Of a stretch of 64,000 nt of DNA, positions 26,894-62,369 are shown in pieces. The notes beneath the pieces are model-generated. The model saw only the letters and a program-made list of their open reading frames with translations. It searched no databases and had not been told where the DNA came from. Source of the stretch: Pseudomonadota bacterium (GTDB taxonomy: Bacteria; Pseudomonadota; Alphaproteobacteria; Rhodospirillales; Magnetospirillaceae); assembly GCA_021848545.1 (NCBI GenBank), contig JAJZUL010000013.1, positions 1 to 64,000 on the forward strand, given 5' to 3'. The stretch's first letter is position 1. Every line of letters starts with the position of its first letter. Position numbers and translations under genes: made by a program.

Positions 26894-27037
26894 AGAGCCC
26901 GACCCAAAAGTCGCCATGGCGGCCTGCAAATGGCGGTTTTCCGCGCTTCCGCTGCTCACGTACATAAAGTACGCTCCGCTGCGGTTCTCGAAAACCGCCA
27001 TTTTCGGCTCACCCTGGCGACTTTTGGGTCGGGCTCT
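26894..27037. repeat. Palindromic repeat family B, copy 2
   Basis: A 144-bp palindrome with outer arms AGAGCCCGACCCAAAAGTCG and CGACTTTTGGGTCGGGCTCT. Both arms carry the same substitution relative to the consensus (CCCAAAAG against CTTTTGGG), so the base pair is restored. It lies 160 bp downstream of the coiled-coil gene's 3' end. Bases 27038-27197 show no other gene. Confidence 0.92.
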
Positions 27038-47732: not shown

Positions 47733-47875
47733 AGAGCCCGACCCGAAAGTCGCCATGGCGGCCTGCAAATGGGGGTTTTCTGCGCTTCCGCTGCTCACGT
47801 ACAGAAAGTACGCTCCGCTGCGGTTCTCGAAAGCCGCCATTTTCGGCTCACCCTGGCGATTTCAGGTCGGGCTCT
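47733..47875. repeat. Palindromic repeat family B, copy 3
   Basis: A 143-bp palindrome from AGAGCCCGACCCGAAAGTCG to GGTCGGGCTCT between the convergent glycerate kinase and diguanylate cyclase genes. The remaining 90 bp up to 47965 hold no gene. Confidence 0.92.
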
Positions 47876-56074: not shown

Positions 56075-56216
56075 AGCCTGACCCGAAAGTCGCCATGGCG
56101 GCCTGCAAATGGCGGTTTTCTGCGCTTCCGCTGCTCACGTACATAAAGTACGCTCCGCTGCGGTTCTCGAAAACCGCCATTTTCGGCTCACCCTGCCGAC
56201 TTTCGGGTCGGGCTCT
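56073..56216. repeat. Palindromic repeat family B, copy 4
   Basis: A 144-bp palindrome between convergent genes. Its first base lies inside the TAG stop of the upstream gene, and its last base is the last base of the ada stop codon (minus strand). Outer arms are AGAGCCTGACCCGAAAGTCG and CGACTTTCGGGTCGGGCTCT. Confidence 0.93.
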
Positions 56217-59072: not shown

Positions 59073-59264
59073 TCAGGCCGACTTTTTCGCCAGCGTATCG
59101 AGCTGCGCCAGAACCTGGCGCCATTTCTCGACGCCTTCGTCGGCATCGGCCGACGCCGAACGGGACCAGGCGGTGACCATTTCCGTGACGGTCTCCCGGG
59201 CTTCTTCCCAGCCGTAGGAGGTCACCAGCGCGCCCGCGATATCCTGTTTGTCCGACTTCGTCAT
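59073..59264 (-). CDS. Small hypothetical helical protein
   Basis: A 63-aa acidic, helical protein (TKSDKQDIAGALVTSYGWEE, then VEKWRQVLAQLDTLAKKSA), with no membrane helix or Cys. No family recognised. GAGGGG five bases before ATG 59264 and a well-formed promoter at 59290-59318 make it a convincing small gene. It is convergent with alkA, 14 bp apart, and divergent from the candidate ncRNA. Confidence 0.72.
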   Translation of the reverse strand: MTKSDKQDIAGALVTSYGWEEARETVTEMVTAWSRSASADADEGVEKWRQVLAQLDTLAKKSA

Positions 59265-59289
59265 ATCCACCCCTCACCGCAACGCAAAA

Positions 59290-59318
59290 ATTATACTGCA
59301 TTGCAGCAATATCGGCAA
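59290..59318 (-). promoter_or_regulatory. Sigma-70 promoter of the small helical protein
   Basis: On the minus strand, TTGCCG (59318-59313), 17 bp, then TATAAT (59295-59290). The start near 59283 leaves a leader of about 19 nt with the GAGGGG ribosome site. Confidence 0.7.
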
Positions 59319-59340: not shown

Positions 59341-59369
59341 TTGACTTCGGAATGAATCAAATGCATAAT
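59341..59369 (+). promoter_or_regulatory. Sigma-70 promoter of the candidate ncRNA
   Basis: TTGACT (59341-59346), exactly 17 bp, then CATAAT (59364-59369), the strongest -35/-10 pair I found in the window. Expected start is about 59376. Confidence 0.75.
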
Positions 59370-59375
59370 GAAAGC

Positions 59376-59649
59376 GTAAGAAATTGGTGGATCAGAGGTG
59401 TAGTCGGGCATCAACTACAGAAGTTCGGTGGGGCCGTACTTTCCGATGAAGGTATGGCGAGCCGAAGGGAGGGTGCGTAAGCGGCATGAAGTCACCTGGT
59501 CAATTGTGAGGCGTCTCTGGTAGAGACGTCGGAAAGGTACGAAGAGGTATTGAAATACTTCCCGGCACGAAGCCGGTACATCGGGCAGTGTGCCCAAAGC
59601 CAAAAGCCCCGCGATGAGCGCTGATCCGCCCGCGGGGCTTGGTTTTTTT
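59376..59649 (+). ncRNA. Candidate structured non-coding RNA of about 270 nt
   Basis: No credible protein is encoded, but the stretch has its own promoter and terminator and is dense in stable helices. They are GTAGT/ACTAC (from 59400); CCGTACTTTC with GAAGGTATGG (10 pairs including G-U, 59434-59457); CGTCTCT with AGAGACG (3-nt loop); GAGGTAT with ATACTTC closing a TGAA loop; CCGGC with GCCGG; and GGGCA with TGCCC. The terminator ends it. It does not show the landmarks of tmRNA, RNase P RNA, SRP RNA or 6S RNA that I can recognise. A stranded group II intron or retroelement fragment remains a possibility. Confidence 0.65.
59604..59649 (+). terminator. Rho-independent terminator of the candidate ncRNA
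   Basis: AAGCCCCGCG (59604-59613) pairs perfectly with CGCGGGGCTT (59631-59640), followed by GGTTTTTTT. Confidence 0.85.
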
Positions 59650-62228: not shown

Positions 62229-62369
62229 GCCTGCCCCGAAACTCGCCATGGCGGCCTGCAAATGGCGGTTTTCTGCGCTTCCGCTGCTCACGTACATGAA
62301 GTACGCTCCGCTGCGGTTCTCGAAACCCGCCATTTTCGGCTCACCCTGCCGACTTTCGAGTCAGTCTCT
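62226..62369. repeat. Palindromic repeat family B, copy 5 (most diverged)
   Basis: A 144-bp copy starting inside the rhodanese stop codon (TGAGCC). The outer arms TGAGCCTGCCCCGAAACTCG and CGACTTTCGAGTCAGTCTCT have several uncompensated changes, unlike other copies. The inner arms and tip are conserved. Confidence 0.88.

Follow-up and report, generated by a model that had tools for sequence, protein, structure and literature searches.

The window, by which we mean the whole stretch of 64,000 nucleotides analysed, contains a predicted RNA gene of about 270 nt that is preceded by a sigma-70-type promoter, closed by an intrinsic terminator and occupied by a Shine-Dalgarno-like motif, a very short reading frame and a series of hairpins (Table 1). 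Both boundary signals claimed in the original prediction were recovered: the promoter (TTGACT-17-CATAAT) agrees with the consensus at 10 of 12 positions, and the terminator (AAGCCCCGCG...CGCGGGGCTT) extends to 59640 and is followed by the T-run. Four promoter-like sites were found within 5 kb, against about 0.7 expected from shuffles. The unit has a predicted folding energy of -107.3 kcal/mol (z -3.61; none of 200 shuffles was equally stable) and a multibranched predicted fold. Two helices described previously were also present in it, namely a stem at 59434-59457, with 11 pairs including GU, which forms part of the larger hairpin PA, and a TGAA-loop stem near 59544-59560, where conservation is poor. 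A small ORF of 65 aa (59073-59270, minus strand) without a Pfam match lies immediately upstream of the RNA gene and divergent from it, with a promoter-like site (TATAAT) at 59290-59318. The window also holds at least four copies (26907-27011, 47745-47850, 56085-56190 and 62238-62343) of a repeat, dispersed through the genome and 106 bp or more in length, with 97-100% identity; two of these copies flank the RNA gene. This repeat has about 40 or more copies over the contigs of the genome and is partly self-complementary (weak 73% reverse matches in matching places), and is therefore a REP/MITE-like element.

Table 1. Elements of the RNA gene in the window and the evidence for each.
Feature	Position	Strand	Evidence or remark
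Sigma-70-type promoter, TTGACT-17 nt-CATAAT	59341..59369	+	Promoter scan; similarly placed box in family homologues
RNA gene	59376..59649	+	5' end predicted from promoter; 3' end taken as end of T-run; homologues; transcript not observed
Variable 5' domain: small hairpin (59399-59419) and hairpin PA (59424-59466)	59399..59466	+	Just upstream of the Shine-Dalgarno-like motif
Shine-Dalgarno-like GGAGG	59468..59472	+	Kept across the whole RNA family
Putative mini-ORF, ATG AAG TCA CCT GGT CAA TTG TGA (MKSPGQL*)	59486..59509	+	Family consensus M-T-P-P-(G/A/D)-x-x-stop
Hairpin P2	59510..59530	+	First base directly after stop codon; covariation in 12 homologues (helix 2) and in short-form subgroup
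Hairpin P3 (CCGGC...GCCGG)	59562..59576	+	Folding, covariation set, relatives
Hairpin P4 (GGGC...GCCC; in relatives GGCC...GGCC)	59583..59595	+	Folding, covariation set, relatives
Intrinsic terminator, conserved loop (AUGAGCGCUGAUCCGC), then T-run	59604..59649	+	

The RNA is conserved well beyond this strain. Homologues, whose collection the original prediction had proposed as a check, were found by BLAST in 11 other genomes of this family; most of these share a GTAAC(A)AAG-like 5' end, and nearly all same-family homologues carry a TTGAC(A/T)-17/18-TATAAT-like box at an equal distance. A covariance model (R1), built from 12 homologues over the final 174 positions, detected the RNA in 39 of 55 same-family genomes, with E-values down to 1e-52 (rough, as for all our covariance models, given their short calibration) and one convincing copy in each, second matches being few, weak or partial; weaker copies appeared in other families of the order as well. 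At the scale of the class, the core pattern GGAGG-N-ATGACTCC-N-CCGG was present in 13 of the 385 alphaproteobacterial genomes searched, none of which contained its reversed version, a scan of named genomes located the core in Magnetospirillum, Paramagnetospirillum, MAGs labelled Phaeospirillum, Rhodopila and other Acetobacteraceae, and BLAST found the RNA in Azospirillum, where no feature is annotated. A second model (R2, 36 nt, trained partly on pattern-found copies) had matches in 28 of 387 genomes, spread over 22 alphaproteobacterial genera. With its strict filters, this survey is probably an undercount. Outside the class, nothing convincing was found in a phylum-wide sample, where the sole such match (L139) resembles coding sequence. 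We discarded this match and two from the class pattern (L095 and L096) as apparent chance hits inside coding sequence, together with six from the scan of named genomes (L056, L069, L073, L074, L076 and L080) that are likely due to chance and lack the promoter/terminator pattern by eye.

On inspection, most distant copies proved to lie between genes; a promoter with a TTGAC(A/T) box precedes them by about 20, 65 or 100 nt, and a terminator follows. At the distant loci, promoters matching at least 9 of 12 consensus positions were present in 12/35 cases (8% in shuffles) and downstream terminators in 23/35 (4% in shuffles). RNA length, about 270 nt in the window, ranges from roughly 170 to 280 nt across the family: hairpin PA is confined to the long forms and the whole 5' domain is reduced or absent in some distant relatives, in which the promoter lies about 20 nt upstream of the Shine-Dalgarno motif, while P3, P4 and the terminator were seen again in most of the lineages for which a fold was computed. 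One genome of the Azospirillum-matched genus (G315, locus L136) has tandem copies at 2336132 and 2336468, each apparently flanked by a promoter and a terminator of its own, and a third copy elsewhere, other genomes usually having a single one.

Base-pairing is conserved together with the sequence. In the Magnetospirillum-type set, 93.7% of cells are paired over 29 pairs, nine of them with double changes, which exceeds all shuffles and slid controls. In a short-form subgroup of 10 sequences, P2 and a pseudoknot formed by the P2 loop (CUUGG) with a downstream CCAAG are paired in 99.2% of cells and include seven double-change pairs, again exceeding the controls, none of 500 shuffles being as well paired. 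Covariation of the pseudoknot depends on a single column, in which three changes are compensated, and it is therefore less certain than P2.

The most conserved part of the RNA consists of GGAGG followed, after 8-18 nt (a spacing often longer than usual between Shine-Dalgarno and AUG), by ATG-ACN-CCN-CCN and usually by an early stop (MTPPGxx*). The original prediction had called the RNA non-coding and had seen no credible ORF in it. By length alone the latter holds, but it overlooked the conserved 7-codon mini-ORF with its Shine-Dalgarno motif; as to the former, the RNA is indeed an unrecognised one, but its best conserved element behaves like a translated frame. In an alignment of 41 diverse copies, GGAGG and ATGAC-CC-CC are near-invariant, and read as codons the core gives Met, then Thr (rarely Ser, Asn, Ile or Lys), Pro-Pro and Gly, Ala, Asp, Glu or others, usually with an early stop. 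The frame most often has 5-16 codons, with a full span from 5 to more than 40 residues, and in four loci (L048, L050, L062 and L119) it is long or has no early stop. In one family (f68; L087-L090 and L109) a longer mini-ORF with the conserved sequence MTPPAI...NL..TAD* overlaps a CAATCTG...CAGATTG hairpin, and the peptide itself may matter there. Another alphaproteobacterial locus (L091, around 1400-1540) has two tandem Shine-Dalgarno-mini-ORF motifs about 90 nt apart, ATGACACCACCTGGGCACTAA and ATGACTCCACCGG...TAG.

Because our search patterns had left third codon positions partly open, which would bias the pattern-found set, the codon test was redone on loci found by BLAST and R1 only. By parsimony on 38 such loci, 18 of the 22 steps in codons 2-4 fall on third positions (binomial p about 4e-6); the mini-ORF bases were excluded from the tree, the RNA is short and the steps are not fully independent. 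Likewise, among 30 loci obtained without a codon-shaped pattern, 26/30 minor states are at third positions (rank 1 of 84), and a stop occurs within eight codons after codon 4 in 29/30 in frame versus 5/30 and 17/30 in the other frames. The proline codons interchange between CCA and CCG and among CCG, CCT and CCC (codon 3 being CCA in 38 of 48 copies), and the start varies among ATG, GTG and TTG. The stop abuts P2 in many lineages, including the window (UGA, 59507-59509), and is UAA instead of UGA in L044 and L077. All listed copies have the Pro-Pro codons except three, those of the window (Ser-Pro-Gly), L044 (PSG) and L045 (PQG). Judged from these substitutions, the core is probably a mini-ORF; its translation has not been measured. 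Counting against this reading are the ACG that replaces ATG in L024 and L025, the incomplete proline pair of the three copies just named, the loci whose frame is long or lacks an early stop, and the often wide spacing between Shine-Dalgarno motif and AUG.

A serious competitor, although we consider it unlikely, is a purely non-coding trans-acting RNA whose core (GGAGG...CAUGACUCCACCGG) would be a structured or antisense motif, the codon pattern being coincidental. The complement of the core, GGUGGAGUCAUG, does resemble a ribosome-binding site plus start codon, and the motif occurs in RNAs whose 5' and 3' portions are otherwise unrelated. The start codon is partly within a small hairpin, the inner stem GUGN/NCAU, which covaries even where AUG becomes ACG, as in two Paramagnetospirillum-type copies (L024 and L025) that retain this hairpin. 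Coincidence nevertheless fits poorly with the third-position bias, the alternative starts and an early stop restricted to one frame. The competing outer GGAG/CUCC pairing is complete at its variable pair in 26/41 copies, but in the other 15/41 it is broken at the third base of codon 2, so that we rejected it as an essential stem, and the variants responsible (AGT, AAT, ACA and ACG) all keep Met-x-Pro-Pro, which speaks for coding. An alternative GGUG/CACC stem in the core was also rejected, as it showed no covariation. The third base of codon 5 (GGT) is nearly invariant in the R1 set, and therefore constraints on the RNA also act.

The genes next to the RNA vary, with no protein neighbour of the window common to the 11 homologue genomes and a different gene pair identified by Pfam in each case examined. 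They include a kup-type transporter, a ClpA-type ATPase with Iso_dh, PMSR with an OppC-type permease, MatE with a response regulator, IPP transferase, pyrophosphatase with SDR, RecO with SLT, luciferase-like proteins, and FKBP with a cyclase. Since neighbours differ whereas promoter and terminator are present, the RNA is in all likelihood an autonomous gene and not a leader. A cis-acting leader or attenuator of the leader-peptide type, controlling an adjacent gene, is accordingly improbable, even if promoter, mini-ORF, alternative hairpins and terminator in series have the layout of an attenuator and short proline-codon ORFs regulate Mg2+ transporters in Salmonella (PMC8092293). In Magnetospirillum the RNA does adjoin a gene whose C-terminus is mgtE-like, by eye only, but the next downstream gene in the window, like phbB in Azospirillum, is encoded on the opposite strand, and the constant same-strand downstream gene expected of such an attenuator was not met in the lineages examined, where neighbours always differ. 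It is very unlikely, too, that the RNA serves as the message of a tiny functional peptide (MTPPxxx) with the remainder as untranslated region: MTPP is conserved with synonymous changes, but neither the residues after Pro-Pro nor the length is, and the conserved structure far exceeds the need of a 24-nt message.

The window RNA matches no Rfam family. An Rfam search of the window, proposed together with the original prediction, gave nothing at the gathering threshold and only chance-level matches at E<=10. The absence of tmRNA, RNase P and 6S landmarks noted in that prediction was borne out, the genome encoding these RNAs on other contigs: alpha_tmRNA (RF01849, 247 bits; ARAGORN finds no tmRNA in the window), RNase P RNA (RF00010, 304 bits, contig C52; no match in the window) and 6S RNA (contig C40). 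The 6S RNA was also rejected as an identity for the window RNA, which has no RF00013 match and a multibranched fold rather than a long hairpin with a central bubble. BLAST of the RNA against plasmid and phage collections gave no match, which excludes a plasmid- or phage-borne location within these collections. The locus is absent from the Rfam table of the M. gryphiswaldense MSR-1 transcriptome paper, the A. brasilense sRNA paper yielded no match by terms (supplementary tables not included in either case), and no paper on an MTPP sRNA was found. A fragment of a group II intron, retroelement (the domesticated fragment once suggested as an alternative) or housekeeping RNA is practically ruled out, since neither group II intron nor other retroelement models of Rfam matched, this genome has a single copy and the family survey showed one convincing copy per genome, the unit has its own conserved promoter, and tmRNA, RNase P and 6S RNA are encoded elsewhere. 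Conservation, covariation and the lack of an Rfam match thus strongly support the main inference of the original prediction, an unrecognised structured RNA with its own promoter and terminator: on the sequence evidence, the small RNA gene is real, previously uncatalogued, and recurs in many families of Alphaproteobacteria.

Several known systems share some of its traits. SgrS/SgrT exemplifies the dual-function bacterial small RNAs that bear a small ORF. Like them, the RNA described here would be autonomous: promoter and terminator signals of its own are conserved, and it has a short putative frame preceded by a predicted ribosome-binding site. This frame, however, usually of 5-16 codons, is constant only in Met-x-Pro-Pro and precedes a conserved structured domain, and the RNA is conserved over many families of a class. 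In Salmonella, mgtL and mgtP are leader ORFs responsive to proline and EF-P. A further leader ORF with proline codons is mgtQ (PMC8092293). These leaders resemble our RNA in having a short proline-codon ORF beside alternative hairpins, with ribosome behaviour as the proposed signal, but they act in cis on a downstream gene, whereas our RNA ends in a terminator and has unrelated neighbours. The likeness to tmRNA (RF01849, alpha_tmRNA), a stable RNA, is a very short reading frame next to pseudoknots. The two-piece alpha form is recognised by a tRNA-Ala-like domain and a resume-codon ORF that lacks a Shine-Dalgarno sequence, whereas our RNA has no tRNA-like part and has its own start codon and Shine-Dalgarno motif. 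Finally, several alphaproteobacterial small RNAs in Rfam (Atu_Ti3, SorX, BjrC80 and others) are also class-restricted and have intrinsic terminators, but show no match above chance.

We favour, with some reserve, a small RNA that is autonomous, acts in trans and has a translated Pro-Pro mini-ORF at its core, with its own sigma-70-type promoter and intrinsic terminator. Conservation, covariation, promoter and terminator signals, codon-like substitution and independence from neighbouring genes provide the observed basis for this reading; that the RNA is transcribed, translated, pauses ribosomes and acts in trans is our inference. Pro-Pro is a known EF-P-dependent ribosome pause site. In proline pairs, CCA has been reported to tune the strength of pausing in E. 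coli (PMC8129111). Ribosomes would load on the exposed Shine-Dalgarno motif, open at a start codon partly held in the small GUGN/NCAU hairpin, and read Met-Thr-Pro-Pro-(Gly/Ala/Asp) before a stop that in most lineages would follow a few codons later, often directly at the foot of P2. Slowed at or near the Pro-Pro codons, they might rest against P2, and their loading or pausing could determine how the 3' domain (P2, the pseudoknot in one subgroup, P3 and P4) folds, how stable it is or how available; this domain would act on other molecules. In the window copy (MKSPGQL*), frame, start and stop are intact whereas the Pro-Pro pair is incomplete, and its lineage may therefore pause ribosomes less strongly or do without pausing. 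Only tentatively, as a possibility we regard as rather doubtful, do we extend this to a class-wide free-standing RNA in which a ribosome paused on the Pro-Pro mini-ORF beside a structured domain, pseudoknotted in one subgroup, serves to report the state of ribosomes, EF-P or prolyl-tRNA, with an effect in trans and not as a cis leader.

Rfam has no family for this RNA, although within Alphaproteobacteria it occurs in at least some twenty genera, among them Magnetospirillum, Paramagnetospirillum, Azospirillum and members of the Acetobacteraceae; this is a gap in the catalogue. A conserved Met-x-Pro-Pro mini-ORF inside an autonomous, terminator-ended RNA is unusual. If the proposed reading is true, a trans-acting RNA would join the proteins and cis leaders in which proline-dependent pausing of ribosomes has been studied until now.
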